Source: a virus | Direction: 5' to 3' (one strand) | Length of the DNA stretch: 31,103 nucleotides | IMG/VR virus record: IMGVR_UViG_3300044641_003539 | Location: 1-31,103 of that record | Translations under genes and position numbers: made by a program | Notes under the pieces: model-generated | What the model saw: the letters and a program-made list of their open reading frames with translations, nothing else | Told to the model about the DNA's origin: nothing | The model's database searches: none | Shown: one piece after another, positions 1,578 through 31,103 of the stretch | How positions within the stretch are numbered: the first letter of the stretch is position 1 | How the letters are laid out: each line of letters starts with the position of its first letter

Positions 1578-1602
1578 CTACAGGCTCGTAGCACTCATTG
1601 TG
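1578..1602 (-). promoter_or_regulatory. Late-gene element 1: CTAC-N6-GTAG upstream of tail fibre
   Basis: On the minus strand this reads CACAATGAGTGC immediately followed by CTACGAGCCTGTAG, and ends 15 nt before the fibre ATG. The same 25-bp block (22 of 25 identical) occurs at 16288-16312 before tail tube A. It lies in the 53-bp spacer between two late genes, where there is no Shine-Dalgarno sequence. Candidate phage promoter or 5'-leader element; function inferred only from repetition and position. Confidence 0.6.
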
Positions 1603-5008: not shown

Positions 5009-8000
5009 TCAGCAGCCTCCAGAAAGTGCTTTGGACTTGAGCGCGGCTATCTGGGCATCGAGCCCGGCCACTTCATTGGTGATTTGCATTTGGACCCCCT
5101 CGTTGTCGGTAGTCCACTTGTCGAGAAACTCCATGCGGCTGGCCTGGTCCTTTGTGACCACCTCGCTGGCCGCATTGAACTCACGCTTGCGAGCAATGTC
5201 GCCCTCGTAGACCTGACGGAAGAAGTCCTCAGCTGACGTAAAGCCATTCCCCTTCCAGTAGTTGGTGAACCGCTCCAGGAGCTGCTGCATCTTGTCGAAG
5301 GCCCGCAGCACCTTTCCGGCAACATTTGCCGTCAGCGTGTTGCCCCACGACTTGCCGTCTTTTTTGGGCAGCGCGCTGTCTAAGGCCTTTACAAACTCCT
5401 CCTGGAACAGCTTGCCGTAGGGATCGCTGAACCCCTGCATCCTGATCTCTGCGTAGGTCTGATAGGCAACTGCCATCCGCTCGATGGTCGCTATCTCCAT
5501 ACGCTCCGGGATGCCGGAGTAGTCGAAGATCCGCTGGCGGCCAAAGGCGGTTTCCATCGCCTTCATCTCGCCCAAATTCATCAGGCCGAACTGCACCCGA
5601 TGGAAGGCTTCGTGGTGGGCGACGCTAACCAGCTCGTCTGGCGAAGCCTCCAGCATCCCCTGGATCACGATCAGGTCGTTGGTGACCTCATAGCGCCCGC
5701 CCTGCACTGAGGGCTTGCTGCCGCCACCCCATGCGGCATTGCGAGGCTTACGCCCCAGCGCGTCCTCAAAACCGATTGCGACGTGTTCGCCTGCAACGTC
5801 CCTGATGATCTGGTCAAGCGCTCCCTCCCAAATCTTTTTGTCATTTGACGGGATGCGCAGGTCGGCGTTGCCCAGCATTACGAACGCACGCTCTTTCTTC
5901 TGACGAATCGGATCAACGCTCTGCAGGACCATGCCTTCGCCGCCAAAGCCTTGATCTGCCACCTGCACGGTCATCTGCTTGCCCACCGGGGCGGCAGCTG
6001 AGCCGGTCTCGGTCTTGACTTGGGCCTTGATCTGCTGGTTGACCATGACGCCATGGCGGCGGACGGCAGCCACGTCAAAACCCGCCTGCTCCAGGGCAGC
6101 AACAAGACGGTCCTCGCCGGCGGATTTCTTGCTGGCGTTGCGCAGCATGTAAGCCGCACGGTCCAGGTCGTTCGCAAACTTCAGCGAGGCGCTGCCGTAG
6201 CGCGGGGCGGACTTGCTGAGATCGGCGGGGAATGTGAACGCAGGCTGCTGCGGCTGGTTCAGCAGTGGCGTTGATGTGTCGTACTGCCCCACGCCAAACA
6301 TGTCTTGCTGGCTGGTGTTCTGCTGGCCGATCGTCCGAGCAATGCGTGCCTGCTCCAGTTGGCGCTCGGCATTGCGCCATTCCCTTGCAAGGGTGTCGTC
6401 ACCGGCCTGCTCGGCCTCCACGCGCTTTTGCTTGGCGTAGGCGGCGCGCTCATCAAGGGTGACGGGATCCGGCTTGTCCCAGCCTTCCAGCATCCCGTTG
6501 GCCTTCTTCTCCTCAAAAGGCATGAGGTCGTAGCCCATGGCCTCGCGGTTGGCCCGCTCGATCTCAAACTGCCGCCGCGCATCTATCTGGGCGTACTCAG
6601 TGCCCAGACGGATCTCGTCCATGATTGCCTGCGCACCCGGGGATCCGGCCTGCAGACCATTGGCCTCAAGGTCCTTGGCAGCAACGGCAGGGTCGACCAA
6701 GGGTCGGGCTGGCAGCTCCGGGATCGAAGTGGCGCTCGGGCGGACCTCGCCGTTGGCGACGGCTTTTTGGATGACTTGGTTCTTTAATGCCTTGCGCTGG
6801 GCGTCAGTCAGGAGCTGTTGCTCGGGCGCAGCCTGCTCAACAGGAGCAACGGCCGGCGCCTCTACTGCCGCCGGAGGCATCGCCTCGGCGCCTGCTTCCA
6901 GCTGCTGGAGGATGCGCTTGACGATCGGCGCCGACTTAGCGCCATTGGCCACCTGGGCTGCCGCCTCGTTCAGCATCTGGCTGATGGGCGTGCCAGCTGC
7001 GTACTTGCTGGCGTCGAACTCACCCAGCACCGCCTGGGCAGTCCCTGCTGCATCTATCACCTGCTGGGCGTTCACCTCAGTGCCGCCCTTGTCAGCCAGC
7101 TGCTTGACGGAGCGGCCGCGGCCAACCCGCTTGAACAGGTTCTTGTTGCCAATCAACTCAGCGCGGATCTTGCCCGCCAGTTCCGCCTTGATGACGGTGG
7201 TGTCGATCTCCTCGTCGCCAAACAGGTTTTTCTGGTTGGCCTTGACCTTCGGTGCGCTGCTTGCCATCTGGGCCAGCTCGCTGAAGGCCCGGTCGGTCAT
7301 GTCCCGCCCTTGGGCGAGCTGATAGACGCGGTTCATCTTTTCGCCGTCCAACCCGCTGCCACCCAGCGCCAGCGCCCGCGGTAACGACAGGTCGCCATCA
7401 ATGGCTGACTGCAGCAGGTTGTCGGGGAGCTTGCTCAGCGCCAGGCCCTGGGTGCCAAGCCCAGAGCTCAGCGGGATGCCGGATGCCTCCAGCTGAGCGG
7501 CGTCTTGGATGCCCGCTTCACGGATGAACTTGGCTGCGTCAAATGCAGTGCCGCCACCAGAAGCGATGTTGCTGATGGCACCCATGGCACGGGCCTGCTC
7601 GGCAGTCCCAGCTGGCAGCTCCTCAACCCGAATAGAGGGGACTCCCAGCTCCTTGGCCTTGGCCAGGCGGTTGTGGCCATTGACCACAAAGGTCTGACCA
7701 TCGGCGGGATCAGTCCAGACTTGAACAACGCCCTCGGCGTCGGTGCTCCACTTGGAAACCCCCTGCAGGGAGTTGCCGATCTGCTGGCCCTGGGCGTTGA
7801 CGCCTTGCTTGAACTGGAAGCGGCCGGGGTCGACCTGAATGGCATTGACATCAAACAGCTGAACCCCGTCGCCGGCTCGGTTGGGCAGCAGCGCAATGCC
7901 CTCTTGCCCCAGGGCGTCAATGCCATCGAGCACGTCCTGGCGGGTGAACTCGCCGAAGTCACGGCCTGTGAGCTCACGAACCCGGTTGTAGAGCAGCGGG

Positions 8001-13117: not shown

Positions 13118-15618
13118 CGCAATGACCTCGCTTTGCCAGTGATCAAGCCCACCCACTCGCAAGTGGAGAACTTGCAGGGGTGTGGCGTGTCGTTGTGGAT
13201 CTCGACCATGCAGCGCTCGCCGCGGCTCATGATCGGGATGTTGAAAACGCCCTCGTAGAAACGATTGGTGTCAGGGTCGAAGCCGGTCGGGTTGGCTGAA
13301 CCCAGCGTTGAAACGCGGCTGCCAAGGACCGTGCCATCAAAGGTGTAGATGCCGGTGTCACGCCCTTCGGGGATGACGTGAATCTGGAAGAACGCTGTTT
13401 CGTGGTAGCGGAGCTTGGCGTTGCGCACCTGCGTCCGCTCGACATTGGCCGCGGCCTTGCCACCGCCAATTTCCTTGTAGAGCTTGAAGCGGGTGAAGCG
13501 ATAACGGAAGTTGTACGGCGCACCGAAGTAGATCGGCTGCGTCGACCAGTTGCCCCTGGCCGTGATCGTCGTGCCCGACGTGATCGAACCCAGCAGCACG
13601 CCGCCATTGCCTGTGGTGCTGTAGCCAGACCAGGCCTGGATCGTTCCGGTGGCGGCAAATGGCAGCGTCCAGGTGGTGAGGTTGGTCGTTGCGCTGTAAG
13701 TACCAGCCGCCACCCGCATGGCAGTCGGGGTCTCCGTGGTGGTGGAGATGCGCCGGTCCAGAAGCAGCGGGTAAGGCGCATTGGTGGGCGGCTCTGGCGA
13801 GCGGTCCTGAACCGGGATCTTCTCCAGGAAGATTTCGCTGCCATAGCGAACCAGGCAGAACAGCGTCTCCCTGACGCACAGCACCTGAAGGATTTCGCTG
13901 GCCCCGCTCAGCTGCCAGTAGCTCCAGCTGGACTGCGCCCGCTCAGCGCCGGAGCCGGCATTGCGGATGAAGTATTTGTAGACGTAGATCCGGTCTTCGT
14001 AGCCAGCGGCGCTGCTGATCGAGAACACCGCATTGCTGGTGTCGTTGACCGTCATCGCAAAGACGTTGCTGGGCACAAACGCCGAGACGTAACCGGTGAG
14101 GTCTTGCGCATCAGCTGTCAGCGCCGTGCCAGCACCGCGGACGCTGAACTCTCGGAACATCGAGAAGTCGCCATTGGCCTGGCAGAAGACGATGCCGCCA
14201 CCAGCCAGCTGGGGCCGGACGTTGATGTCGACCTCAAACTGCGTCAGCACGGTGATCTGCGCCGTGGCTGGCGTCAGCACAGTCTCCGCCGCGTTGAAGC
14301 GGAACTGGTACTGCGGCGAGAACAGGATCAGCTCGTCCTGGTACGGGATGGCGTAGCGCAGAACAGAAACCCGGTTGTTGCTGGCCACCACGTCAATCGG
14401 ATCCGTATCAAGGACCGTCGTGACCGTTTCCGGGAAGAACTCAAAGAATTGGCGCACCCGGCTCAGGATGACGTTCTCGTCAGACAAGAAGCCAAGCCGG
14501 TTCTTGTAGATGAAGATGTCGTTGATCGGGCTTCCGATGAAGCTCGGGTCAGGCGCCGTGTCGTAGTCGCCAGCTACCCGCTCGCCCCAGGTTGGAATGG
14601 TGATCCCGCCCTGGGTGCTGCCATTGGCCGGGCCAAAGTAAAAGGTGCCGCTTGGCAGGCGCACCAGCAGGTGCGGCATGGTCGTCGCATTGACCTGGTA
14701 CTGAACGCCAGGGCTGACCGTTTCACTCCAAACGCCTTCGCCAAACGTGCCGCTATTTGGCTGGAACTCGACGTAGTAGCCGTCAAAGTTGTTGCCCGGA
14801 TCCCCGGTAATCTCGACCTGGTAGCCCTGCGGGGCGATGGTCGGCAGCTCCGTAAAAGCCTGGACCTGGCTCAGGATTGCGGTGATGTCCGCGTTGGCCC
14901 TTGCGTCGTTAGCTGAAACGGTGATCGGGTTGGCGGATCGGAGGTGAATCACCGATCCGCTGCGCGTCATGGTGACTCCGGTTAAGCCGGCAGTCGTCAG
15001 CCCGGTTATCAGGTTGGCCGCAATGTCCGCCGAGCTGATTCGGTTCTCGGTAACCGTGGTGCCGCTGGTCACAACCGGGGCAACTGCCGTCTGCACCTGG
15101 GCCTGGCGGGTGTTGACATTGACCGTGTAGGTCTGGCCGTAGTTGGCGGCCTTGACCCAGATCAGCGCTTCGTGCGCTGAAGGCCTTGCCACGGCCGGTG
15201 CAACCGCAGCGTTCATCGCAGGCACCGTCTTGGTGTTGCTGATGAAGGTGTAGTCGGCAATGGTGACGGCCCGCAGCTGCGCCTTGGCGTCCGTCACGCT
15301 GGTCAAATAGCTGTACCCATAAGGCGCGCTTACCGTTTGGGCGTTGCCGTTTAGGTCGTAGACCCTGATCAGCGAGTTGGTGACAACGGCCAGGTACTCC
15401 TCCACGTTGTCCCGCAGGATGCTGTGGATGTAGCAATCGCCAAAGTCAGTGTTGGAGACCTTGGCGACGGTCTGGGTGCAATCACGCTTGCGCAGGCCCT
15501 CCAGGATGGAAGACATGCCGTTGATCTGGATTTCCCCCTGGGAGGGATCGCGTTGCGCATCAGGTTGCTGGCTGATGCCCTGCGCAAGGTTCGGGATCGA
15601 ATAGGAATACAGGCTCAT
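13114..15618 (-). CDS. Tail tubular protein B, T7 gp12-like
   Basis: 834 aa against 794 in T7. The ATG at 15618 overlaps the stop of tail tube A (TGATG). The N-terminus (SIPNLAQGISQQPDAQRDPSQ) is the hallmark of gp12-family nozzle proteins, and is followed by conserved blocks EGLRKRDCTQTVAKVS, GSPINDIFIYKNRLGFLSDENVILSR (about residues 360-390) and SPQYQFRFNA. In T7 six copies form the conical nozzle at the tail tip that closes and opens for DNA release. A strong, full-length match by eye. Confidence 0.95.
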   Translation of the reverse strand: MSLYSYSIPNLAQGISQQPDAQRDPSQGEIQINGMSSILEGLRKRDCTQTVAKVSNTDFGDCYIHSILRDNVEEYLAVVTNSLIRVYDLNGNAQTVSAPYGYSYLTSVTDAKAQLRAVTIADYTFISNTKTVPAMNAAVAPAVARPSAHEALIWVKAANYGQTYTVNVNTRQAQVQTAVAPVVTSGTTVTENRISSADIAANLITGLTTAGLTGVTMTRSGSVIHLRSANPITVSANDARANADITAILSQVQAFTELPTIAPQGYQVEITGDPGNNFDGYYVEFQPNSGTFGEGVWSETVSPGVQYQVNATTMPHLLVRLPSGTFYFGPANGSTQGGITIPTWGERVAGDYDTAPDPSFIGSPINDIFIYKNRLGFLSDENVILSRVRQFFEFFPETVTTVLDTDPIDVVASNNRVSVLRYAIPYQDELILFSPQYQFRFNAAETVLTPATAQITVLTQFEVDINVRPQLAGGGIVFCQANGDFSMFREFSVRGAGTALTADAQDLTGYVSAFVPSNVFAMTVNDTSNAVFSISSAAGYEDRIYVYKYFIRNAGSGAERAQSSWSYWQLSGASEILQVLCVRETLFCLVRYGSEIFLEKIPVQDRSPEPPTNAPYPLLLDRRISTTTETPTAMRVAAGTYSATTNLTTWTLPFAATGTIQAWSGYSTTGNGGVLLGSITSGTTITARGNWSTQPIYFGAPYNFRYRFTRFKLYKEIGGGKAAANVERTQVRNAKLRYHETAFFQIHVIPEGRDTGIYTFDGTVLGSRVSTLGSANPTGFDPDTNRFYEGVFNIPIMSRGERCMVEIHNDTPHPCKFSTCEWVGLITGKARSLR

Positions 15619-16280
15619 CAGAGGCGCATCCCAGAACTGATCCGGCGGGTGGCAAGCCCAGAAGCCGGCGCATAGGTCGGGAAGGGCAGGTAGCCGCGGC
15701 TGCCGGTGAGCATGTTGGGCTGGTCAACCTGCTGCTCCATGCGCTCCAGCGCTGCCTGGGCGTCGCGCTCGTCCTGGGCGCTGTAGCGAATCAGCGAATC
15801 GGCGCCCAGCACACGGCTGGCAAAGACACGGGCAGAGCGGATGGTGACCCAGCGGTTGTAGGCCTCGGGCGCCTGGTCCCACGGCAGCAGCCAGATCACA
15901 TCGGCATACAGCGAGGTAATTGCCGCCTCAAGCGTGCTTGTGCGCTTGTCGCGGTCGTACACCACCTGCCCCCGCAGCTGGAAACGACCTGCGTAGTAGT
16001 AGGGGTCCGTGGAGAAACTCACCACGTTTGCCGGCACCGTGATCTGGTTGGTGGTGCTGTTTTTGACGAACTCGTAGTTGTACTCGCTATTCCAGCTCCA
16101 GCCTTTGATCTGACCTTCTTTGTGGAACTCCAGCAGGGTGCGCTCTGCAATGCGCGCATCCATGATCTGCTGGTTTTCCAGCGTGCTGACCGGCTGCTCG
16201 CCAATGTTTTCCAGCAGGACATTGACCGCATCCAGCAGCGTCGTCCTGCCTGGGGTGACCGACTGATTGGCGAGTCCCAT
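15618..16280 (-). CDS. Tail tubular protein A, T7 gp11-like
   Basis: 220 aa from the ATG at 16280 (MGLANQSVTPGRTTLLDAVN); T7 gp11 is 196 aa. An in-frame GTG at 16304 lies inside the CTAC-N6-GTAG block and is unlikely to be the start. Family features: LLDAVNVLLENIGEQPVSTLE near the N-terminus, ARIAERTLLEFHKEGQIKGWSWN, and the RYSAQDERDAQAALERME region near 180. Twelve copies in T7 form the adaptor ring between portal and nozzle. It is the first gene after the capsid terminator and is preceded by a repeated element 7 nt upstream. No clear Shine-Dalgarno sequence. Confidence 0.94.
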   Translation of the reverse strand: MGLANQSVTPGRTTLLDAVNVLLENIGEQPVSTLENQQIMDARIAERTLLEFHKEGQIKGWSWNSEYNYEFVKNSTTNQITVPANVVSFSTDPYYYAGRFQLRGQVVYDRDKRTSTLEAAITSLYADVIWLLPWDQAPEAYNRWVTIRSARVFASRVLGADSLIRYSAQDERDAQAALERMEQQVDQPNMLTGSRGYLPFPTYAPASGLATRRISSGMRL

Positions 16281-16287
16281 TTGACTT

Positions 16288-16312
16288 CTACGGCCTTGTA
16301 GCACTCATTGTG
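16288..16312 (-). promoter_or_regulatory. Late-gene element 2: CTAC-N6-GTAG upstream of tail tube A
   Basis: On the minus strand this reads CACAATGAGTGC, then CTACAAGGCCGTAG, ending 7 nt before the tail tube A ATG. It lies just downstream of the terminator after the capsid gene, where transcription would have to restart. 22 of 25 bases are shared with the element at 1578-1602. Candidate late promoter. Confidence 0.62.
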
Positions 16313-16381: not shown

Positions 16382-17419
16382 TCAGGGAATCACGATCTTA
16401 CAAGCGGACTCAGCGCGCAGCACACCCATACCCAGAGCTTGGCGGGCGACCATAAGGTCGGCTTGGTTCTGAACCCTGTACTCGGGACCGGTCATCTGCA
16501 GGGAGGGGCTCAGCAGGGTGAGAACACCCACGGCTTCCTTGCTGAAGATCAGACCCTTGCACTTGCTCAGGTTCTGAGCGTAGTCGCTGTTGTAGTCACC
16601 AGCCTGCAGGGTGTAGTTGGCCTGGGTGACGTGGTTGGACATCAGCACAGGGATGCCAGCCACTTGCAGGACCTGACCGTTGGCAATGGTGCCATTGCCG
16701 CCACCACCGCCGTTGAAGTCGGCGTTGATTGCACGCGAAGACTGCGAGATCAGGAAGTAGTCCTCAGGAGTGAAGACTGCATACATGCCGTCAACAGGCA
16801 CGTCCTTGCCCTCAAAGGCCACGCGGGCATCGAAGATGGCATTGACCAGGGCGTCGCCCTTGGCTTGGCGGGTGGCACCAGCGCCGGTGTAGTCAGCACC
16901 AAGAGTGATGGCGTTACCGGTCTTGTGAGCGTTGATCGCCTTGGAGAGGGGCTGGGTGGTGTTGCTGGCAGCCGCAAAGATCATGCGGGCAACACGCTTG
17001 TCGTACTCGTAGGCCAGGGCCCGGCCCAGCTCGGTCGTGTAGACCTGCCGGACATCGAAGTACGACATCAGCTCGTCCACCTCAAGGATTGCGGCATCCG
17101 CAACCATCAGGGCGTCAAGCGAAATGATCCGCTCGTTGAGGTCACTGGTGTTGGTTGAGCCAGTGAGCGCAGTGCCGGGCTGGTGATATTTTGCCTCCAG
17201 GCGACCGGTGATCGGGAAGGCAACGCTCTTGCCGCCGCGGATGTTGCGTTCGCGGACTTTGCCCTTGAACACAGTGGTGCGCAGGAAGCTGTCGAGCACC
17301 TCAGCGGCACCCAGCTTCAGCATCAGAGCGCGGTCGGCATCGAGGCCGGCGGCACCGGCACCCCAGGTAGCGGCGGCGCCTTGGATTTGGCCAGTGCGAT
17401 TAAGAACGGGAGCAACCAT
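16382..17419 (-). CDS. Major capsid protein, T7 gp10A-like
   Basis: 345 aa, the same size as T7 gp10A. The N-terminus (LDADRALMLKLGAAEVLDSFLRTTVFKG, about residues 27-55) and the blocks RGGKSVAFPITGR, LDALMVADAAILEVDELMSYFDVR and EYDKRVARMIFAAA are typical of the gp10-type HK97-fold capsid family. The E-loop region (RNIRGGKS...EAKYHQPGT) and a Gly-rich loop (FNGGGGGNG, near 215) are visible. It follows the scaffold gene after a 105-bp leader. That leader contains a CCTCC-AA-GGAGG inverted repeat, but the bases right before the ATG (CCAGAAAA) are not a good Shine-Dalgarno sequence. No gp10B-type frameshift extension was identified. Confidence 0.95.
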   Translation of the reverse strand: MVAPVLNRTGQIQGAAATWGAGAAGLDADRALMLKLGAAEVLDSFLRTTVFKGKVRERNIRGGKSVAFPITGRLEAKYHQPGTALTGSTNTSDLNERIISLDALMVADAAILEVDELMSYFDVRQVYTTELGRALAYEYDKRVARMIFAAASNTTQPLSKAINAHKTGNAITLGADYTGAGATRQAKGDALVNAIFDARVAFEGKDVPVDGMYAVFTPEDYFLISQSSRAINADFNGGGGGNGTIANGQVLQVAGIPVLMSNHVTQANYTLQAGDYNSDYAQNLSKCKGLIFSKEAVGVLTLLSPSLQMTGPEYRVQNQADLMVARQALGMGVLRAESACKIVIP

Positions 17420-17524: not shown

Positions 17525-18382
17525 CTACACGAATAGATCACTTGCCGCCAACATCTTTGCCACCTTGGAGCGGTAAGCCTCGTCAACTTCGTACAGGCGT
17601 TGTCCGCGCTCATTGGTCTTGCCCATGGCATCAAGCACTTGCTGTTGGCTCTCAAAGCGGGATTGCTGAGGTGCATCTCCGCCCCCGTAGAGCTTGGGTT
17701 CAACAACAGCGTCTGGAGAGGCGCGTCTGGCCACCATTGCCCGCAAGGCCCATTGGATGGCCTCTTTGTTGCCGCCGTCAACCACGGCGTTGTAGTCGGC
17801 CAGCTCCTGGGCGTTGAGGTTGCTGGCGGCCCACTTGCTGAGCTCGGCAAAGCCCTCGTCACCGCCAACCATGGACTTGATCTGAGCAGTGTCCGCTTCG
17901 CTCAGGCCAGCCTGCTGCCCTGTCGATGACTGGGCCTTGGCGACATAGTTTTCCACCACCTGGCGGGGGACGTTGAAGGCTTCAGCCAGCGCGTCGTAGT
18001 GGCTGCTCACATCCTCGCCGCTGTCGGCGCGGAACATCACGTCCGCCAGGTCGACGCCTTTGCTGGCCAGGGTCTCTACGGCTTCTTGGCCATAGACCTC
18101 AACGGCCTGCTCCTGTGTGTAGCCCTCGGCCTGAGGGGGAGCTTCTTGCTCGGTTGACTGCCGCTCGGGCCGGCCCAGCTTCTTCTCCAGTTCTTGGTAG
18201 GAGCGCTCCAGGTCCTCAACGCTCTTGAACTTGCCGGCGAGCAGTTCGGGCGCCTGTTGGCCCTGCTGTTCTTTGACAAATTCCTCCAGCAGGCCTTCCT
18301 GCCCGGGCGCCACCATTCCTTCTGCCGCAGCTTCAGGTGTGGTGATCTGAGGCGCGGTTTGCGCGTTTGGGGTCGTGGTCAT
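17525..18382 (-). CDS. Capsid assembly scaffolding protein, T7 gp9-like
   Basis: 285 aa (T7 gp9 is 307 aa). The ATG at 18382 overlaps the portal stop (ATGA), indicating coupled translation. Acidic, Gln/Glu-rich N-terminal half with low complexity; the block LAGKFKSVEDLERSYQELEKKLG (about 46-70) is the recurrent core of podovirus scaffold proteins. The C-terminal third ends in basic/aromatic residues (YEVDEAYRSKVAKMLAASDLFV), consistent with a capsid-binding helix-turn-helix. It directs procapsid assembly and leaves before maturation. Confidence 0.93.
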   Translation of the reverse strand: MTTTPNAQTAPQITTPEAAAEGMVAPGQEGLLEEFVKEQQGQQAPELLAGKFKSVEDLERSYQELEKKLGRPERQSTEQEAPPQAEGYTQEQAVEVYGQEAVETLASKGVDLADVMFRADSGEDVSSHYDALAEAFNVPRQVVENYVAKAQSSTGQQAGLSEADTAQIKSMVGGDEGFAELSKWAASNLNAQELADYNAVVDGGNKEAIQWALRAMVARRASPDAVVEPKLYGGGDAPQQSRFESQQQVLDAMGKTNERGQRLYEVDEAYRSKVAKMLAASDLFV

Positions 18383-19995
18383 GCGGGTTGGTCTTCAGGG
18401 GGTTGTTCAGCCGCCATCTGCATGTCCTGCACGGTGGCGGCTGCAGTGGCGAGTTTTTGCGGGTCGGCCATGTTGGATTGCATGGCCTGCTGTGCCATGG
18501 CCATCTGCTGTTGCTGCTGTGCTTCAGCAGCCAGCTCCTCATCGGACTTCACCAGGCCGAGGATGTCGATGCCCATGGAGTACGCCAAGCGCTTGATCAG
18601 CTCAGGCGGCTTGACGTACCGCGACAGGCCCTCAGGCCCGATGGTGTTGCCAAGCGTGGTGGTGAAGCGCACCAGCTGCTCAAGGTCGTTGCCGCGGCCC
18701 ACAGCTGCCAGGCCAACGGTCATCACCGGCTTGACCAGCTCCTTGGGCATCTTCGGCACCTTGCCCTGGCGGGTCAGGATGTCGAGCTTGCGCGACACAT
18801 ACGGGACCTGGAACTCGGTCGTCAGGATTGAGTAGATCGAGCCCAGGCTGTTTTCGATCTGCAGCGCCTGCAGCCGCACTTCCTCAGCGGTGACCCGCTC
18901 AGCGTCCCGCATGTCGGCCAGCATGAACGCCTGCGCCAGGCGCGCCTCGATCTGCTGCTTGCCTTGCATGGCAACGCTCAGGTCGGAAGACTTCTGGACC
19001 TGCAGCGCCAACACGTCATTGGGATCACCCGTGACGAAAGAGCCGTTGGGCGCCCGGGCCAGATCAGCCGCTTTGGTGACGCCGCTGGGCTTGACCAGGA
19101 ACAGCACCTTGCTGCTGGCCAATGCACCTTCTGCAATCGCCTGGCACAGCGCCTCAACGGTCTGCAGGTCGGCGATGGCGGCGCTTTCGATGTAGCCAAC
19201 GCCATAGGGCTGGCCGTCGCAGCGTGTCATCCGCAGCGGCAGCCATGGGCTCACCTCTTTGGGTGCCTTGCCTTCGGTGCCGGGGATCTTCTTGCCCCGT
19301 ACCTCCTGGTGCCAATAGACGTAGCCGTTCTTCCAGCAAACGTAGGTGTAGAGCTTGACGGTCTTTTCCTTGCCCTGGGCGGTCAAATGCCGCTCGTGGT
19401 CAAGGATGCCGCGCAGCTCGTCGTCCTCCTCGTACAGCAGGTCCTGGATCTTCTTGGGCAGCTGCTGGATGGCCAGCTGCTCACAGGTCACCACCTCCAG
19501 CGGGTTGCCCATGGGGTCCCGGGAGACCACATAGCGGTTTAGATGAAAGACCCGCAGACCCTCCGAGGAGATGTAGAGCAGAGCGTTGCCCGAAACGATC
19601 AGGTGCAGCAGCGCCTCGTGAAACACCACGCGGTCGTTGCTGGCCTCGATCTCCCGCAACACCATGCGCTCGATCTTGCTGAGCGCTTCCTCTGTCGCGG
19701 ATTTCTGCTCCGGTGTGACGCCTTGCTTGGCCAGCTCGGCGTCATCCAGCGAAAAGCGGAAGAACTGCTGCGTGGGCGGCAGCAGGGCAAGCAGCATGCG
19801 GCTGGCCAGGTTCAAGACGCCGCGTGCGCCAATGCCATTCCACGGCACGGCATACGAGTCCTTGGAATTTTTGTCGGGCTCGTTGGTGTCGGGAATCAGG
19901 TACGGGATTGTCAGCCGTGCTGCAACCCGTGCGCGATCCAGGTAGTGGTCGCGGTCGCTTTCAAGCCGCCGGTAGCACTGTTCCGCTGATTCCAT
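18379..19995 (-). CDS. Portal (head-tail connector) protein, T7 gp8-like
   Basis: 538 aa, against 536 in T7. Conserved blocks: ERSE-like N-terminus CYRRLESDRDHYLDRARVAARLTIPYL, WNGIGARGVLNLASRMLLALLPP (about 53-75), HEALLHLIVSGNALLYI, and FHLNRYVVSRDPMGNPLEVV. The tail (500-538) is Gln/Met/Ala-rich, as usual for the disordered C-terminus. Twelve copies form the ring at the packaging vertex that binds TerL. It follows three small virion-type genes with a 3-bp gap and overlaps the scaffold gene. Confidence 0.95.
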   Translation of the reverse strand: MESAEQCYRRLESDRDHYLDRARVAARLTIPYLIPDTNEPDKNSKDSYAVPWNGIGARGVLNLASRMLLALLPPTQQFFRFSLDDAELAKQGVTPEQKSATEEALSKIERMVLREIEASNDRVVFHEALLHLIVSGNALLYISSEGLRVFHLNRYVVSRDPMGNPLEVVTCEQLAIQQLPKKIQDLLYEEDDELRGILDHERHLTAQGKEKTVKLYTYVCWKNGYVYWHQEVRGKKIPGTEGKAPKEVSPWLPLRMTRCDGQPYGVGYIESAAIADLQTVEALCQAIAEGALASSKVLFLVKPSGVTKAADLARAPNGSFVTGDPNDVLALQVQKSSDLSVAMQGKQQIEARLAQAFMLADMRDAERVTAEEVRLQALQIENSLGSIYSILTTEFQVPYVSRKLDILTRQGKVPKMPKELVKPVMTVGLAAVGRGNDLEQLVRFTTTLGNTIGPEGLSRYVKPPELIKRLAYSMGIDILGLVKSDEELAAEAQQQQQMAMAQQAMQSNMADPQKLATAAATVQDMQMAAEQPPEDQPA

Positions 19996-20847: not shown

Positions 20848-21258
20848 CTAAGCAGAAAGGGTGGTGATGTTCAGCCCAGAGCCGCCGCTATTGGCGACAG
20901 GCGCCGTGGATCGGCCAATCCGCAGCGCGCCTTTGCCCTTGCTGGTGTTGATGCCACGGGCAGCGCTGCCAACACGCGGCGCCTGGGCCGTGGGCTCCGG
21001 CGGCGGCGTGCCGATCAGCGTCGCCATGCGCATGGCCGCGGCATTGGTGTTTTCGGCCTGCAATTTGGCCTGCTCAGCGACCTGTGCAGCAACACGCTCC
21101 TGATTGCGCAGCGATGCAGTCAATTCCTGCTGCTTCTGCTGCGTTCCGCTGTTCATTGACTGCTCAATCGCAGCCTTCTGCAGCTGGAACTCGTTGTTGT
21201 AGGCGCTGTAGTCCGGCATCGTGATCGTCGCCGGGCTGCCTCCTCCTCCTGCGCACAT
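20848..21258 (-). CDS. Small MC-GG...GSGLNI protein 1 (gp6.7/gp7.3-like)
   Basis: 136 aa, ATG at 21258 overlapping the previous stop (TGATG). It starts MCAGGGGSPATITMPDYSAY and ends with GALRIGRSTAPVA, then NSGGSGLNITTLSA. The centre (25-85) is a Gln/Glu/Ala helix (QKQQELTASLRNQERVAAQ). Same two-ended signature as the next two genes but with a divergent middle, which suggests old duplication with the termini conserved for docking. No enzymatic motif. Confidence 0.77.
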   Translation of the reverse strand: MCAGGGGSPATITMPDYSAYNNEFQLQKAAIEQSMNSGTQQKQQELTASLRNQERVAAQVAEQAKLQAENTNAAAMRMATLIGTPPPEPTAQAPRVGSAARGINTSKGKGALRIGRSTAPVANSGGSGLNITTLSA

Positions 21259-21449
21259 CAGGGCACCTCCACGCCAAGCAGGCCTTGTTGCTGATCCTCC
21301 CGGTGCTTCTTCAGCCAGCGGACCACTGAGACCTGGCCGGCGCGAAACCAGACCTCTTTCTCCGTCATGTCCATGGACGGCGCCTGGTCGGGAAACTGCT
21401 CAGCCAAAAGGCCAACCATTTTCTCGTCAATGACGGGGACGTAGCCCAC
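21258..21449 (-). CDS. Small protein, frame probably broken at its N-terminus
   Basis: 63 aa from a GTG at 21449 (GYVPVIDEKMVGLLAEQFPDQ...). Upstream, in the frame of the endolysin and right after its stop, 19 codons (21502-21446) encode LGLNWLYGYAYYVYDPAEW, which looks coding (aromatic-rich, no stop) and would join naturally to GYVPVID if one G were added or a -1 slip occurred at AGTGGGC. No Shine-Dalgarno sequence supports the GTG. The intact protein would thus be about 82 aa. Possible causes are a sequencing error, a real mutation or programmed frameshifting. Function unknown. Confidence 0.6.
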   Translation of the reverse strand: MGYVPVIDEKMVGLLAEQFPDQAPSMDMTEKEVWFRAGQVSVVRWLKKHREDQQQGLLGVEVP

Positions 21450-21502
21450 TCTGCGGGGTCGTAGACGTAGTAAGCGTACCCATAAAGCCAGTTCAGGCCC
21501 AG

Positions 21503-22096
21503 CTACCGGCGTCTGGTGAAGATCGTGATCAGCTTTTTGCTGTAAAGCGGGTCCGTCGCATACCCCTCAGCCTGCAGAAGCCGGGCGCACTCCTCGGGTG
21601 TGGTCGCTCGATTGACCCCGCGATAGCCCTTGAAGTCCTTGTACCACCGATCGCACAGGTATCGGACGGCATGACCAAGGCTCGTGAAGTCCATAAAGGT
21701 GTCAACGATCTTGACCTCCTTGCCGCCATACACCTCGCTGGTCTTACACGGCGTTCCAGGGCCCTTCAGGCCAAACATGTTCCAGCGACCGGACGGATGA
21801 GCCCCGTAATTGCTCTCCAGGGCCCACTGAGCGGCCACAACCTGCGGAAAACGGGCGCCGTAGGCCGCGGCAGCAGCCTTCACACCCTCCCAGCTGTTGG
21901 CATACTCCCCCTCTGCCAGGGTTCGGGAGCGAAAAACTTGCAGCCACTCGGCTGATTCGTGCAATAACGCAGGGTCAACTGCTTTGATGTGTTCATACAG
22001 GAGGTTGATTCCTTCCTGCTGCTGTTGTTCAGCCCTGTACCACCGCCAACAATCACGCCATTTCTGCGGCGTGATCAGGCCGTCCTCCATCGTCAT
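21503..22096 (-). CDS. Endolysin: GH73-type N-acetylglucosaminidase (FlgJ-like)
   Basis: 197 aa, ATG at 22096 (a second ATG follows at 22090). The C-terminal 120 residues carry the GH73 pattern: FPQVVAAQWALESNYGAHPSG with the likely catalytic Glu at about 94, WNMFGLKG (105-112), FMDFTSLGHAVRYLCDRWY and the end motif EGYATDPLYSKKLITIF (177-193). It would hydrolyse the glycan strand of peptidoglycan. T7 instead uses an amidase (gp3.5). There is no signal peptide, so a holin or similar is needed for release. The first ~55 residues are a charged helical extension. A CTAC-N6-GTAG element lies 14 nt before the start and no Shine-Dalgarno sequence is seen. Confidence 0.87.
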   Translation of the reverse strand: MTMEDGLITPQKWRDCWRWYRAEQQQQEGINLLYEHIKAVDPALLHESAEWLQVFRSRTLAEGEYANSWEGVKAAAAAYGARFPQVVAAQWALESNYGAHPSGRWNMFGLKGPGTPCKTSEVYGGKEVKIVDTFMDFTSLGHAVRYLCDRWYKDFKGYRGVNRATTPEECARLLQAEGYATDPLYSKKLITIFTRRR

Positions 22097-22110
22097 AGTG
22101 GATTAGAGCT

Positions 22111-22124
22111 CTACACCCTTGTAG
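22111..22124 (-). promoter_or_regulatory. Element 3: CTAC-N6-GTAG between endolysin and TerS-like gene
   Basis: CTACACCCTTGTAG on plus, CTACAAGGGTGTAG on minus, within the 30-bp spacer between two divergent genes: 14 nt from the endolysin ATG (minus) and 2 nt from the TerS-like ATG (plus). The core is palindromic, so it could serve either gene. On the minus strand GCTACAAGG matches element 2. Confidence 0.55.
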
Positions 22125-22126
22125 CC

Positions 22127-22366
22127 ATGTCAGACCTGCAGCAGCAACTGAGCGAAATGCACGAGGAGCTGATCGCTCAAGTGCTTGATGACCTTAAAAA
22201 CGGTGATCGCAAGGCCCGAGCGGAAGCCATGCAGCTGCTCAAGCAGAACAACGTCACCTCCGTCGCCCAGGAAGGCAGCACGCTGCGCAAGCTGGCCGGC
22301 AAGCTCGACTTCTCCAGCATGGAAGACAAGGTGGTGCCGCTCAACCGCCAACGCGAAGCCGGCTGA
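22127..22366 (+). CDS. Probable terminase small subunit (T7 gp18-like), on the opposite strand
   Basis: 79 aa from the ATG at 22127 (MSDLQQQL). Like gp18-type small terminases it is short, with an N-terminal helix pair: MHEELIAQVLDDLKNGD, then AMQLLKQNNVTSV (the E-L-L-x-x-L-K-N-G and L-L-K-x-N-N-V pattern), then a basic segment LRKLAGKLDF and a polar tail. TerS binds the concatemer and loads TerL. It is the only plus-strand gene amid the late arm: divergent from endolysin (30-bp gap) and convergent with TerL, overlapping its 3' end by 26 bp. There is no Shine-Dalgarno sequence; the CTAC-N6-GTAG element abuts the start. The family call is by pattern and context, not proven. Confidence 0.68.
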   Translation: MSDLQQQLSEMHEELIAQVLDDLKNGDRKARAEAMQLLKQNNVTSVAQEGSTLRKLAGKLDFSSMEDKVVPLNRQREAG

Positions 22367-24104
22367 CCCCACCGTGGGCGCGATGGGAGGCCTTTGGCCG
22401 CCAGCCCAGCGCCAAGGCATCAATCGCAGCACCGCTTTCATCCAGCCAGGCGTCATACGCCTCCTGCTGCAGCTGGTCCGCACGCGCCCGTGCAGCCCGC
22501 TGCTGGTCTTGCGCCGCGGACTCCACAAAGAACCCACAGGCAATCGCCAGTGCATCCAAACGGTCGTCATGGCTAAGGCAGCCCTTCTCAGCGGTCAGGC
22601 GGCTGGCCTGGACAAACAGTGAGCGGCTGTAGCCGGTTTCCGGGTCTTCATCCAGTAGGCGGTAGTCCTGCTTGATGACACGGGTGGTGACCACCAGGCG
22701 GTGCTGCTGGATCAGCGGACCCAACGTGTCACACAGCCGCTGCTCCTTCCGCTGGTTGTGACGCACCTCCTCGATGGTGACGGGATGCTCCCGCATCAGG
22801 TGCGGCTTGAGCAGCGCCGAGAACATGCCGTCGCCCATGTTGGATTCAGCGACGACGTAGTTCACGTCCCACTTCTTGGCCACCTTGGCCAGGTACTGCA
22901 GCACCTCATCGGCATAACCCAGGGTGCTGCCGCCGGATTCCAGCAGGAACAGGTTGCCGTTCAGTTCGGCCACCACCGCCCAGGCCAGTTCATCGGCGCC
23001 GCGGCCAGCAGGGTCAATCGCCAGCACACACCGCCACTGCTCACTGCGGGAAATCCAGCCGTTCTGGAAGATCGGGCGGTGGTAGAAGCGATCAGACCCC
23101 ATCCCGACGCAGACCAGCTCCTGCAAACGCATGTCGGGCTGGTTCGACCACACCACCGTTTCCGGTAGTGCCGTGCCGTCGATGTCCATCACGATCAGGT
23201 CCCCCAGGCGCACGGGGAACTTGTCCAGCGTGGCCAGACGGGTGTTGAGCATGAACTGCAGCTCAAAGCTGGCCTTGGTCATGGCCGCTTTGCGTTGCAG
23301 GAGGTCTTCGTGCGAAAAACGCTCGGGATCTGTTGGCTCCCCCGTCAGGGCAGGGTCGGCTAAGACCTCAGCCTCCAGCACGGGGTCCAGATTCCCTTCA
23401 TACGACTCCAGCTCCTTGGGGTACAATGCCGGCCAATAACGAGCCGAATAGCTGCGCTCCCGCACCAGCCGCAGGTAAATGCTGGTTTCGGTGTGCGGTG
23501 TACCCAGGTACAGGATCTTCCGCGCTAACGGCTGCCCTTCATCGGGCTTGATGATCGACTGGATCTCCTCAACCGCATGCGCCACCCGCTCTTGCTTGAG
23601 TTGGGTGATCACATTGGCCAACGTCTCCACGTCATCAAGGATTGCGCAGGTACAACGCTGACCCGTGGTCTGCCCCATGATCCCCATCGAGCGCACCGAT
23701 GGAGACTGCTCCACCATCGTGGGGCCCACATCAAAGGCCACGTTGGAGAACCGGTTGCTGGGCCCTGGCATCAGGCACTGCAGGATGTCCACCTCGCCAA
23801 TGCAGCGCAGCATGAACGACGAAAAGTCCGTCGCCTTCACCGCCGTGGCTGACACCACCAGGATCTTCTCGCTGGGATCCACCCGCAGCCGCCACAACGC
23901 ATAAAACGACGCCAGGATCGACTTCCCCAGACCCCGGAACGCCACCGTCAACGACCGCTCGGGGCCGTTTTGCATCCAGTCACAGACACTGATCTGCTGA
24001 CGGGTGGGGCTATCCGCTAGCCCCAACTCCCGCAGCAAATAACAAGTGAAGTTCGGAAAGCTGTCCCGCAAGACATCCGGTAACGGCTCCCACAGCTCCT
24101 TCAC
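22341..24104 (-). CDS. Terminase large subunit, T7 gp19-like
   Basis: 587 aa from a GTG at 24104 that overlaps the previous stop (GTGA). ATPase domain: Walker A-like AFRGLGKS (about 55-62) and Walker B AILDDVE (154-160). Nuclease domain: VLAIDPAGRG with the acidic residue at about 364, and SHDDRLDAL with Asp at about 513-517. This is the gp19 layout; the enzyme packages DNA through the portal and cuts it. In T7 this gene is near the end of the genome; here it opens the structural arm. Its 3' end overlaps the TerS-like gene on the other strand. Confidence 0.95.
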   Translation of the reverse strand: MKELWEPLPDVLRDSFPNFTCYLLRELGLADSPTRQQISVCDWMQNGPERSLTVAFRGLGKSILASFYALWRLRVDPSEKILVVSATAVKATDFSSFMLRCIGEVDILQCLMPGPSNRFSNVAFDVGPTMVEQSPSVRSMGIMGQTTGQRCTCAILDDVETLANVITQLKQERVAHAVEEIQSIIKPDEGQPLARKILYLGTPHTETSIYLRLVRERSYSARYWPALYPKELESYEGNLDPVLEAEVLADPALTGEPTDPERFSHEDLLQRKAAMTKASFELQFMLNTRLATLDKFPVRLGDLIVMDIDGTALPETVVWSNQPDMRLQELVCVGMGSDRFYHRPIFQNGWISRSEQWRCVLAIDPAGRGADELAWAVVAELNGNLFLLESGGSTLGYADEVLQYLAKVAKKWDVNYVVAESNMGDGMFSALLKPHLMREHPVTIEEVRHNQRKEQRLCDTLGPLIQQHRLVVTTRVIKQDYRLLDEDPETGYSRSLFVQASRLTAEKGCLSHDDRLDALAIACGFFVESAAQDQQRAARARADQLQQEAYDAWLDESGAAIDALALGWRPKASHRAHGGVSRLRVGG

Positions 24105-24412: not shown

Positions 24413-24841
24413 CTAATCCTCGTCTCCCGTCAGCCCACCAGGTGTGCGCAACATCTTCGCCCGCACACTCGGACGTAACGCCTCACCCATCACATCAATC
24501 GCTACCCGCTGCGCTTCCACCTGACTCGGATGCAACACCCGGTAAATCCGCTTCCGTGATCCGCCATGCCAGCTGCTGGTCAAACCCAGACAGCTGATCA
24601 ACCCGTCATCCAGCAGCAGGTCCACAGCCCTCAACACCGTCGCCTTCCCCAAACCACAGACATCCGCCAACGCCTTGTGGCTCATCTCCGTCGTCCCCCC
24701 GCACTCCCCACGCTGGTCATGCCACGCCGCCTCCCACAACACCCCATACACCAACCCACACTCCTTCCCCAGCGCACACGCCTCCCGCATCAACGGACAG
24801 GACCCATCCAATCGAACAGCCAAGGGTTCCAGGCAGAACAC
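24413..24841 (-). CDS. Winged helix-turn-helix regulator
   Basis: 142 aa from a GTG at 24841; an ATG at 24790 is an alternative. Residues about 53-90 form a helix-turn-helix: MSHKALADVCGLGKATVLRAVDLLLDDGLI, followed by a wing-like segment with GGSRKRIYRVLHP. This is the GntR/IclR/MarR style of winged helix, in which the second helix (GKATVLRAVDLL) reads DNA. It is the first minus-strand gene next to the central control region. Direct repeats ACAGATATAAGAAGG flank its upstream region and one overlaps its start, so self-regulation is plausible. No Shine-Dalgarno sequence; a CTAC-N6-GTAG element lies 16 nt upstream. Confidence 0.75.
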   Translation of the reverse strand: MFCLEPLAVRLDGSCPLMREACALGKECGLVYGVLWEAAWHDQRGECGGTTEMSHKALADVCGLGKATVLRAVDLLLDDGLISCLGLTSSWHGGSRKRIYRVLHPSQVEAQRVAIDVMGEALRPSVRAKMLRTPGGLTGDED

Positions 24842-24938
24842 AGATATAAGAAGGACGCTACACCCCCGTAGTCCAATCCCACCTCTTACCCCGATAAAAC
24901 CCTCCCAACCTCCTACACAGAAGACAGATATAAGAAGG
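24840..24938. repeat. Direct repeat pair ACAGATATAAGAAGG (24840-24854 and 24924-24938)
   Basis: Two perfect 15-bp copies 84 bp apart, start to start. The first overlaps the GTG start of the minus-strand regulator. Read on plus, TATA followed by purines (AAGAAGG) looks like a single-subunit RNA polymerase start region; SP6 promoters end ACACTATAGAAGAAG. Read on minus they could be operators. Function not established. Confidence 0.65.
24858..24871 (-). promoter_or_regulatory. Element 4: CTAC-N6-GTAG upstream of the winged-helix regulator
   Basis: CTACACCCCCGTAG on plus, CTACGGGGGTGTAG on minus, 16 nt upstream of the GTG start of the regulator. Fourth copy of the palindrome; close to element 3 (CTACACCC shared). 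Confidence 0.5.
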
Positions 24939-28186: not shown

Positions 28187-28507
28187 ATGGATTTGGATCA
28201 ACTGGAGCGAGCTTTCGGCGTTTTCGGGACGCTGGATCCGGGCTCGCTTCCGCTCCACCACGCTCAGGTATTCCTGTTCATCGCGCAGCAGGAGTCCTGC
28301 ACCTACCGGGACATCGAAACCCGGTTTGGACTGAGCAACGCATCGGCCAGCCGAATCGTGAACTCCCTGGGGGAGCACGCCAACCACCGCAAAACCTGCC
28401 TAGGCCTGATTGAGGTCTTCATTGACCCAGCAGAGGGCAGGCGATACCGAGTGCGGCTCACGAAAAAAGGACTGGCCATCAAGCGGGCCATCGAAGGGCT
28501 CGCGTAA
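28187..28507 (+). CDS. MarR-like winged-helix protein 2
   Basis: 106 aa, ATG at 28187 with ACCACGACC immediately before it and no Shine-Dalgarno sequence. Helix-turn-helix from about 38 to 65 (CTYRDIETRFGLSNASASRIVNSL), then a wing and VRLTKKGLAIKRAI at the end. The order and closing motif match MarR proteins. Relative 1 has the same size and closing motif, so the two may be an old duplicate pair. It lies directly before the integrase, where a lysogeny regulator would be expected. Confidence 0.78.
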   Translation: MDLDQLERAFGVFGTLDPGSLPLHHAQVFLFIAQQESCTYRDIETRFGLSNASASRIVNSLGEHANHRKTCLGLIEVFIDPAEGRRYRVRLTKKGLAIKRAIEGLA

Positions 28508-28539
28508 CCACGACCCCACCCGCGTTCTGCACAGAACGC
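28507..28539 (+). promoter_or_regulatory. Early leader 7: ACCACGACC then stem-loop before integrase
   Basis: ACCACGACC (28507-28515) overlaps the previous stop region, then GCGTTCT-GCAC-AGAACGC (28522-28539, 7-bp perfect stem) 8 nt before the integrase ATG at 28548. Here the order of motif and hairpin is reversed, and the hairpin could mask the start. Confidence 0.45.
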
Positions 28540-28547
28540 TTGCACCC

Positions 28548-29597
28548 ATGACAGACGGCCATCTCAGGAGGCTGCCCAGCGGAGGCTGGGTGGCTGATTT
28601 CCGCGTCGACGGCAAACGCCGCCAGCTCAAGGGCAAAACAAAAGCCGAGGCCAAGGCCCGCATGGACGAGGCCCTGGACGAGACGGCCCTGATCAACAAA
28701 AGAAAACGGCAGAGCGCCTTCACCATCGGGCAAGCAAGGCAGCTGTCTCTGCGCGTTCGCTGGTCAGGCCGGGCAGCCGAAAAGAACGCCGCCGGGTACA
28801 GCCTGCAGGTGGTCAACTTCTATGGCGCCGAACGGCCCCTGGCAAGCATCGGCACCAAAGACTACGAGGACATGCGGCAGCACTTCCTGAAAAAGGGAAA
28901 CCAGCCCGCCACGGTCAACTGGAAGGCCTCAACGCTGCAGTCCATGTTTCGGGACGCCCAGCTGTACGGGGAGATCACCGAGGAGGAGATCCCGAGGTTC
29001 CCTAAGCGGCTGCCGATTGACAACACCAAGGATCGGGTCTTTGAGGACGAGGAGCTCAGGGCGTTCTGCGCGTACCTCCAGGCCATCGAGAAGCACGAGG
29101 CCGCCTACCTGCTGGTGTTCCTCTGCGAGGTGGGCTGCCGGTTCTCTGAGGCTGCTCGGCTGATTGGCCGGGACGTGGACCTGCGCGACAACCGCGTGGT
29201 CTTCCGCAAGACCAAAACCCGCAAGGCCAGGACGGTCCCTTTGACGCCTGCCGCGGCTGATGCGATCCGGCCTTTCATGCCGGTGCTTTCAAGCCAACGG
29301 GTCTGGAGCCTGGGATACAAGCAGTTCGACTACCTGTTCAACCGGGCCAAGGCAGCAGTGGGGCTCGCGGACGACAATCTGCTGACAATCCACGTCACCC
29401 GTCACACCTGCGCCTCGCGGCTGACCCGTTCCGGTTCATCCCTGCTGAAGGTGATGCAGTGGGGAGGCTGGAGCGGGCTGACCAGCGTGCAGCGATACGC
29501 CCACGTCGACCTGACCTCGCTGGAGGCTGCGGCCGAGCTGTTGCAATGTGGTCGATGTGGTGGATCACCACCGCTGCAAAAAATCACTTGCAACTGA
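28548..29597 (+). CDS. int: Tyrosine recombinase (integrase)
   Basis: 349 aa from the ATG at 28548; a longer frame from 28410 overlaps the MarR-like gene and lacks family features. Basic N-terminus (GKRRQLKGKTKAEAKARMDE) with an arm-binding-like segment, core-binding domain at about 55-150, catalytic domain at about 165-330. Catalytic set: R198 (GCRFSEAARL), Lys at about 221-223 (KTKTRKARTV), H282-x-x-R285 (IHVTRHTCASRL), W308 (GGWSG, His-to-Trp form) and Y317 (RYAHVDL). All are present, so it is probably active. It would join phage attP to a host attB. TTGCAA repeats follow; the attP core was not identified. Confidence 0.93.
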   Translation: MTDGHLRRLPSGGWVADFRVDGKRRQLKGKTKAEAKARMDEALDETALINKRKRQSAFTIGQARQLSLRVRWSGRAAEKNAAGYSLQVVNFYGAERPLASIGTKDYEDMRQHFLKKGNQPATVNWKASTLQSMFRDAQLYGEITEEEIPRFPKRLPIDNTKDRVFEDEELRAFCAYLQAIEKHEAAYLLVFLCEVGCRFSEAARLIGRDVDLRDNRVVFRKTKTRKARTVPLTPAAADAIRPFMPVLSSQRVWSLGYKQFDYLFNRAKAAVGLADDNLLTIHVTRHTCASRLTRSGSSLLKVMQWGGWSGLTSVQRYAHVDLTSLEAAAELLQCGRCGGSPPLQKITCN

Positions 29598-29659: not shown

Positions 29660-29692
29660 ACATAGGCTTTACAGGGCCGTAGAGCAAATCAC

Positions 29693-29716
29693 AAGCCTGC
29701 AGCAGCAGGCTTTTTT
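29693..29716 (+). terminator. Intrinsic terminator after integrase
   Basis: AAGCCTGC-AGCA-GCAGGCTT forms an 8-bp stem with a 4-nt loop, continuing into a run of T to 29716. It is 95 bp after the integrase stop and 66 bp before the RNA polymerase start, so the two genes should have separate transcripts. Confidence 0.85.
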
Positions 29717-29781
29717 CTTGCAGATACGGCTCCGCGGTACTCACAGTGGGCTTGCAACACACAATTTGCAATTTGCAAGCG

Positions 29782-31103
29782 ATGTGCAACCCATCTGACG
29801 GCCTCGTCGCTGAGCAGTTGCAGCGACAGACCAAGGCCGAGCAGAGGGCTGCTGAGGCTCACCAGAGCGCCCACAGGCGCCTGCGTGAGCTCGGCAAGGA
29901 GTCGGCCCTGCCGTATGGCCAGCGGCTGTACAGCGTCTGCCTGGAGGCCTTAGCGGGGGCGCTGGAGAGCGAGTTCGAGGACTTCCTGCTGGCCCCTGAC
30001 AAGGCCCGACCGTTCGCCGCGGCCATGCCCTACTTCGACGGCTTCAAGGGGGTGCATCACATTGCTGCAGTTGCCCTGGTGGCAACGCTCGACCAGCTCA
30101 GCCGCAAGCAGCGGATGGCCACGTTTTGCCAGAACCTGGGCAAGGCGGTGGAGGACGAGACCCGCCTGATGCGGCTGGAGAACAAGAGCCCGCTGGAGCT
30201 GCGCCGCTTGATGCGCCACGGCATGAGCCGCCGCAAGATCGCCAGCAAGGAGGTCATGGCCCAGCTGGGCTGCCCGGCCCCGGCGTGGAACGACATGGCC
30301 CGGCTGCAGGTCGGGCAGTTCCTGCTGCACCACATCGACGCATCAACCGGCTTGGTGAAGGTGGTCAAGCACCGGGTCGGCAGGGGCTACCCGTTCTTCG
30401 TGCTGCCCAGCGAGGAGGCTGAGCAGTTCATCCGCGAGTGCCCGCGTGGCACCTACAAGGCCTCGCACAGCGCCATGGTCTGCCCGCCTGAGCCATGGCC
30501 TGGGCTGTATGGCGGCGGCGTGCTGGGCAACCAGGAGTGCCTGATCCGGGTGCCGATCCAGGACAACGAGGAGAAAGACGGCAGCGCCATCGAGCACTAC
30601 CGCCGCGCTGAGCTGTCGGCTTTTGTCAGCGCGGTCAACCACCTGCAGACCACGCCCCTGGTGGTGGACGGGGAGATGGTGGAGCTGCAGCGCACGGCCT
30701 GGGAGAACGGCATCGAGGGGCTGTACCCCTGCCGCAGGGCGCCCATGGAGGTGCCAGAGCGGTTGGGCAATGAACCCACCGCAGAGGAGCTGCGGGCCCG
30801 CAACCGGCTGGCGGCCATGGCCCACCGGGACAGGGAGCAGAACAGGACCAGGCGAATCAAGATCGAGCGGGCACTGCAATCAGCCGAGGAGCTGGCTGGC
30901 CGCACCGTCTGGCAGGCCTATCACGCTGACCACAGGGGCCGCATTTACAGCGGGAACAAGTACGTCACCCATCAGGGGCCCGACTACGAAAAGGCGCTGC
31001 TGTCGTTTAAGCAGCAGGCCCCGGCCACTGACGAGGGCATCGACTGGATCTTCAAGGCCGCGGCCGGCCACTACGGGCTGAGCCGCAGCTACTGGAGTGA
31101 GCG
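29782..31103 (+). CDS. Single-subunit T7-like RNA polymerase (N-terminal part; runs off right edge)
   Basis: 440 codons open to the edge from the ATG at 29782. The end of the visible part (QNRTRRIKIERALQSAEELA, then VWQAYHADHRGRIYSGNKYV and SRSYWSE) matches the T7 polymerase region with D-x-R-G-R-x-Y, the start of the palm. The N-terminal domain (about 40-180) has the typical helical layout and HHIAAVALVATLDQLSRKQR. It would transcribe late genes from its own promoters. The leader has three TTGCAA sites and no Shine-Dalgarno sequence, so it may be repressed in lysogeny. The catalytic C-terminus is missing. Confidence 0.93.
   Translation, partial: MCNPSDGLVAEQLQRQTKAEQRAAEAHQSAHRRLRELGKESALPYGQRLYSVCLEALAGALESEFEDFLLAPDKARPFAAAMPYFDGFKGVHHIAAVALVATLDQLSRKQRMATFCQNLGKAVEDETRLMRLENKSPLELRRLMRHGMSRRKIASKEVMAQLGCPAPAWNDMARLQVGQFLLHHIDASTGLVKVVKHRVGRGYPFFVLPSEEAEQFIRECPRGTYKASHSAMVCPPEPWPGLYGGGVLGNQECLIRVPIQDNEEKDGSAIEHYRRAELSAFVSAVNHLQTTPLVVDGEMVELQRTAWENGIEGLYPCRRAPMEVPERLGNEPTAEELRARNRLAAMAHRDREQNRTRRIKIERALQSAEELAGRTVWQAYHADHRGRIYSGNKYVTHQGPDYEKALLSFKQQAPATDEGIDWIFKAAAGHYGLSRSYWSE

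Follow-up and report, generated by a model that had tools for sequence, protein, structure and literature searches.

The small (TerS) and large (TerL) terminase subunits normally serve as a model case of partner subunits that are co-transcribed. In phage T7 they are gp18 and gp19 (DNA maturases A and B; Pfam families PF11123 and PF22530). The locus described here likewise comprises two adjacent genes in a T7-like phage with its own RNA polymerase, and both proteins match these families above cut-off. LUZ100, a T7-like phage with temperate features, has phage promoters that are dispersed, one of them before its own RNA polymerase gene (PMC10134795); it shares an integrase and a MarR-like gene with the phage described here, and, unlike that phage, has TerS co-directional with TerL. 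The Syn5 RNA polymerase promoter is ATTGGGCACCCGTAA, which is present in only two copies in Syn5 (PMC3950665).

The window, which is the whole stretch of DNA that was analysed, comprises 31,103 bases of phage genome. A near relative of 42,461 bases aligns in reverse orientation with most of it, at 94-99% identity, so about a quarter of the window's genome is probably absent. The late arm occupies the minus strand from 24.8 kb downwards, in the order winged-helix gene, TerL, lysin, gene X, head genes, portal, capsid, tail tubes, internal proteins and fibre, and those neighbours of TerS that have homologues are all on the minus strand to the left end. The early arm is on the plus strand from about 26.6 kb and contains MarR-like, integrase and RNA polymerase genes, the last of which is cut by the window end. 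The features of the locus are as follows.

1578..1591, minus strand: copy of the dyad element upstream of the fibre gene
15618-16304, minus strand: tail-tube-A reading frame
16288..16301, minus strand: dyad copy at the start of the tail-tube-A frame; in relatives at a fixed -21/-20 before tail tube A
16382-17419, minus strand: capsid gene of the late arm
18379-19995, minus strand: portal gene of the late arm
21258-21449, minus strand: gene X
21451..21464, plus strand: dyad copy upstream of gene X, with its GTA half towards TerS
21503..22096, minus strand: endolysin of the glucosaminidase type, divergent from TerS (phrog_10051, 1.7e-55; PF01832, 60 bits)
22104..22113: perfect palindrome TAGAGCTCTA, not conserved in relatives
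22111..22124, plus strand: dyad element CTACACCCTTGTAG (CTACA-CCCT-TGTAG), at -16..-3 of the TerS start, a candidate TerS promoter or operator
22127..22366, plus strand: predicted small terminase (TerS) of the T7 gp18 type, 79 aa
22341..22366: 26-bp tail-to-tail overlap of TerS and TerL, TCAACCGCCAACGCGAAGCCGGCTGA
22341..24104, minus strand: large terminase (TerL) of the T7 gp19 type, 587 aa (phrog_38, 4e-84; PF22530, 123 bits)
24413..24841, minus strand: winged-helix (wHTH) protein upstream of TerL, replication-initiator-like, 142 aa, 67% identical to S37-C6 31208-31633
24858..24871, minus strand: dyad copy before the wHTH-TerL pair
25458: additional dyad copy
28187-28507: MarR-like protein
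29669..29682: dyad copy upstream of the RNA polymerase reading frame
29683-31101: RNA polymerase reading frame, homologous to the S37-C6 RNA polymerase

The sequence-only reading had proposed that a gp18-like gene of 79 codons lies on the plus strand within the minus-strand late arm, and a profile search of the encoded protein agrees. The protein matches PF11123 (DNA_Packaging_2, T7 gp18) with 38.0 bits, above the cut-off of 27.5, and phrog_891 ('terminase small subunit') with E=1.1e-7. A second TerS candidate was sought in ten long related genomes and none was found; all ten contain exactly one PF11123 match, in each case above the cut-off. Across the family, pN/pS of the TerS frame is 0.03-0.23 outside the overlap. 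Judged by these profile matches and by selection, the open reading frame at 22127-22366 is a real gp18-type small terminase gene of the phage. Position 22127 is the likely start because relatives align from M-[AST]-DLQ; a longer in-frame reading from a GTG at 21989 is without homology support. An AlphaFold model of the protein is helical and of modest confidence (pLDDT 66, pTM 0.36), and among its structural neighbours, all weak, are other small terminases and DNA maturase A. A sequence search of solved structures gave matches at chance level only. In S-SRP02, S38C3 and their relatives, TerS has an insert after the first helix (for example, DDDGNPKPTSNDDLR) that is absent from the window-type protein. 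Deposited genomes of relatives (S37C6, S31C1, S38C3 and S-SRP02) label the protein 'hypothetical protein', and the gene that they leave unannotated can now be named.

The winged-helix gene is upstream of terL and co-directional with it, which is the usual place of terS. Perhaps, then, the inverted frame is a vestigial TerS and another protein, such as the winged-helix protein, recognises the DNA. We regard this as very improbable, since the winged-helix protein resembles replication initiators, S31-C1 and S38-C3 have genes with unrelated annotations next to terL, and the inverted frame evolves under purifying selection and is the sole PF11123 match. The place upstream of TerL is taken in S-SRP02 by a small protein other than the winged-helix protein.

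Relatives of the locus were gathered via both TerL and TerS, TerS was located by using a profile built in the analysis, and the locus counts include near-identical loci. In a first set of 293 loci with TerL, the two genes are convergent in 221 and co-directional in 65, and TerS is undetectable in 7. A second set of 161 loci, with TerL of the cyanopodovirus and pelagiphage types and one additional genome contig, has 146 co-directional pairs, 14 loci with undetected TerS and one convergent pair. This sole convergent locus (L458) was retrieved with the window's own TerL, to which it is 82% identical. Where both genes were found, the pair is thus convergent in 222/222 loci of one lineage and co-directional in 211/211 loci outside it. 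The earlier statement that terminase subunits are normally co-directional is supported, none of the 211 loci outside the lineage being convergent. In sampled T7-like phages outside the lineage, TerS is upstream of TerL on the same strand, whereas in the lineage it lies inverted at the TerL 3' end. Named records of the co-directional kind with a TerS match are CRP-804, P-SCSP1k, P-SCSP2, 9515-10a, Syn5, P-RSP2, S45-C18, RHEph01, Gjalp, YIMV22061 and LUZ100. A chance reading frame or artefact is ruled out by the profile match, the purifying selection and the 222 loci.

A TerL tree (FastTree; 117 rows after redundancy reduction) requires one change of orientation, and all 71 convergent rows are monophyletic with support 100. 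The inversion is therefore old, and the single deep change rules out a recent or contig-specific event. The convergent clade includes Oinezvirus S37C6, Nohivirus S31C1 and Stopalavirus S38C3, all of uvMED G9, the isolate S-SRP02, which infects Synechococcus SR-C1, and many uncultured contigs. The TerL proteins of the three named G9 phages and of S-SRP02 are 56-88% identical to that of the window. The lineage consists of marine and freshwater T7-like phages, and in the whole of it, that is, in three genera, an isolate and many uncultured relatives, TerS and TerL are permanently on opposite strands. The pair holds together as a unit while its neighbours switch strand: the portal is on the TerS side and on the TerL strand in 99 loci, the TerS-side neighbours run with TerS in S-SRP02-type phages, and RNA polymerase is the neighbour of the pair in Stopalavirus-type phages. 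Structural genes run with TerS in S-SRP02, whereas those of the window run with TerL. No comment on the convergent layout was found in the open-licence literature, though the records show it. The proteins belong to known families, of which they are ordinary members; what is new is the convergent layout, fixed throughout the lineage, together with a set of candidate cis-elements.

The account that we favour, with somewhat better than even confidence, is that a real TerS has been separated from its partner by an ancestral inversion. One gene of a co-directional terS-terL pair, which could be either gene, would have inverted in the ancestor, and the tail-to-tail pair would have been inherited since. 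Co-transcription with terL would have been lost, and in phages like this one terS would have become a small unit of its own, started from the dyad at -16..-3, which is likely a promoter of the phage RNA polymerase. The same dyad, facing the opposite way, precedes the wHTH-terL pair. Because terS is flipped and often carries its own promoter-like switch, TerS and TerL are probably transcribed separately.

The last 26 bp of TerS are complementary to the end of TerL, as the sequence-only reading had noted, with 22341-22366 pairing with the last TerL codons. In the lineage, 215 loci overlap by 4-68 bp, and 214 of these overlaps have a length of 2 mod 3. The pair therefore has a single fixed register in which only the stop codons have shifted. 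Five convergent loci have gaps of 96-591 bp in place of an overlap; in a sixth, the TerL frame is broken. The gap of one locus (L179, 2756-3353) is occupied by a TerS-strand frame of 221 aa, so insertion can separate the convergent pair. Within overlaps of at least 20 bp, TerS-frame pN/pS is about 0.7-1.8 in the better-sampled groups, groups of three sequences being too small for judgement, and synonymous change is low. These values are as expected where the TerL frame bears the constraint, and no constraint beyond coding needs was found. Because the overlap is lost in a few loci and drifts in length, and because the TerS frame is hardly constrained within it, it is unlikely to be a regulator. 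Under the favoured account, it would be mostly passive, arising where the terS stop codon falls in the end of terL, and it looks like a by-product that is tolerated rather than used.

No terminator-like or sigma-70 promoter site between TerS and TerL exceeds the number found in shuffles, so transcripts from both sides may well overlap, and the two could run into each other. Consequently, it is conceivable that overlap and readthrough lead to pairing of terS and terL RNAs or to collision of polymerases, setting the TerS:TerL ratio. The fact that convergence has not reverted in 222 loci is in keeping with such control, as is a report of antisense RNA over structural genes in the T7-like LUZ100 (PMC10134795). 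However, a small, single inverted gene would seldom flip back in any case, the overlap is replaced by a gap in the five loci noted above, the overlap length drifts, and in longer overlaps the TerS frame is almost free. We consider antisense control unlikely. A related scheme, in which two facing units are fired by one shared dyad switch and collision or antisense pairing sets both the TerS:TerL ratio and the onset of packaging, would be unlikely to a similar degree.

Two palindromes occur in the 30 bp that separate the starts of endolysin (22096) and TerS. Only that at 22111-22124 is conserved across the lineage; the perfect palindrome at 22104..22113 is not conserved and was set aside. The conserved dyad ends 2 bp 5' of the TerS ATG. 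In S-SRP02, where terS starts with GTG, the corresponding copy is at 7170-7183. De novo motif discovery in upstream regions of the lineage yields AaCTCTrCAcssnTGTAAyC, and the pattern CTRCR-N4-YGYAG has 16 intergenic occurrences in four annotated genomes, where 0.36 are expected. With near-duplicates removed, although the sequences counted share one evolutionary history, a looser form of the dyad is within 40 nt of TerS in 40/69 convergent upstream regions (shuffles: mean 2.5, maximum 7), and in 33 of these 40 it is at exactly -16. Upstream of co-directional TerS genes, it was found in 0/43. The dyad likewise lies upstream of tail tube A in 16/19 cases (at -21/-20 or -17), of the winged-helix gene next to TerL in 9/10, of RNA polymerase in 11/24 and of gene X in 18/32; it is not above chance before the genes for major capsid, portal, scaffold, tail tube B or TerL. 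In about 40% of the lineage, no dyad is recognisable before TerS; these phages include the Nohivirus type and loci, such as L175, L177 and L188, in which a co-directional gene ends just before TerS.

Conservation is higher in the half of the dyad that contains GTA. This half is directed downstream to tail tube A in 15/16 copies (other half, 8/16) and at the wHTH-TerL pair in 9/10 (other half, 4/10), and it faces TerS in 30/47 TerS copies (other half, 20/47). It also points back towards TerS at gene X (19/20) and at the C39 lysin (11/15), and its orientation is mixed at the RNA polymerase gene. The sequence-only reading had supposed that one palindrome between TerS and endolysin might control both genes. 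The palindrome is indeed a conserved, repeated element, but its better-conserved half faces TerS and away from the lysin, and on this orientation it was rejected as the lysin promoter. An RNA hairpin or translational operator was also rejected, there being no significant covariation between the arms.

Because the inversion split the pair, TerS would need a start of its own, and the repeated, oriented dyad directly before it is the obvious candidate. The dyad is repeated and intergenic and heads transcription units, and phages of the convergent lineage encode a predicted T7-like RNA polymerase (that of S37-C6 matches phrog_414 with 3e-127). A promoter for this polymerase is favoured because the enzyme is encoded, the dyad core is partly Syn5-like, and the phage promoters of LUZ100 are dispersed and include one before its RNA polymerase. 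The dyad and the Syn5 promoter (PMC3950665) have in common the core CACCC..GTAA just before the presumed start; the dyad differs in having 2 bp more in the core, near-dyad symmetry and many more copies per genome. The likeness to known phage promoters is partial. If the dyad is a promoter, the terS transcript would be nearly leaderless. Against this reading, there is no space for a ribosome-binding site between the start codon and a promoter ending 2 bp before it.

Because the dyad is nearly symmetric, it suits an operator as well as a promoter. The main alternative is therefore that a phage regulator of the MarR-like or winged-helix type binds it and jointly represses or activates terS, RNA polymerase and late units, whose promoters would be elsewhere. 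A MarR-like gene (phrog_9665, 5e-22) adjoins the integrase in these phages, and the MarR-like protein of LUZ100 has been proposed to repress its RNA polymerase promoter (PMC10134795). However, an operator does not readily account for one half being consistently better conserved and oriented with transcription at tail tube A, wHTH-TerL and TerS, dyad copies also occur inside the structural arm, and no alternative repeated promoter-like motif was found. A search of repeated 16-mers for promoters recovered mainly low-complexity stretches. An operator is accordingly a possible reading that we hold only tentatively.

By either reading, promoter or operator, TerS would be controlled apart from TerL, with a dosage of its own, and the candidate element would start TerS separately. 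Where the dyad is present, TerS of the lineage has its own promoter-like site, unlike the T7 gp18/gp19 layout. For these T7-like phages, the elements provide a candidate set of promoters or operators, and S-SRP02 makes it possible to test whether TerS must differ from TerL in dosage or timing.

Several other features of these genomes were observed. The divergent slot beside TerS contains the glucosaminidase-type lysin in the window (21503-22096) and a gene annotated as a C39 peptidase in S-SRP02 (L297, 6443-7156), and S37-C6 has no lysis gene there. The MarR-like gene overlaps the integrase gene (28187-29597, plus strand, in the window) just 5' of RNA polymerase, as in LUZ100, and this arrangement suggests a temperate option. 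In three lineage members, C/A-rich repeats (CCAACAACCACCACCA, CCAACCAACCAACC and ACCACGACCACGACCA, in gene sense) lie just 5' of many early-gene starts. They are at 9313, 10872, 11673, 12080, 12841 and 13959 in S-SRP02 (L297), at 37658, 40850, 41376 and 41590 in S38C3 (L124), and at 3420, 4209 and 4840 in a near relative of the window (L125), and are possibly unstructured leaders or regulatory sites.
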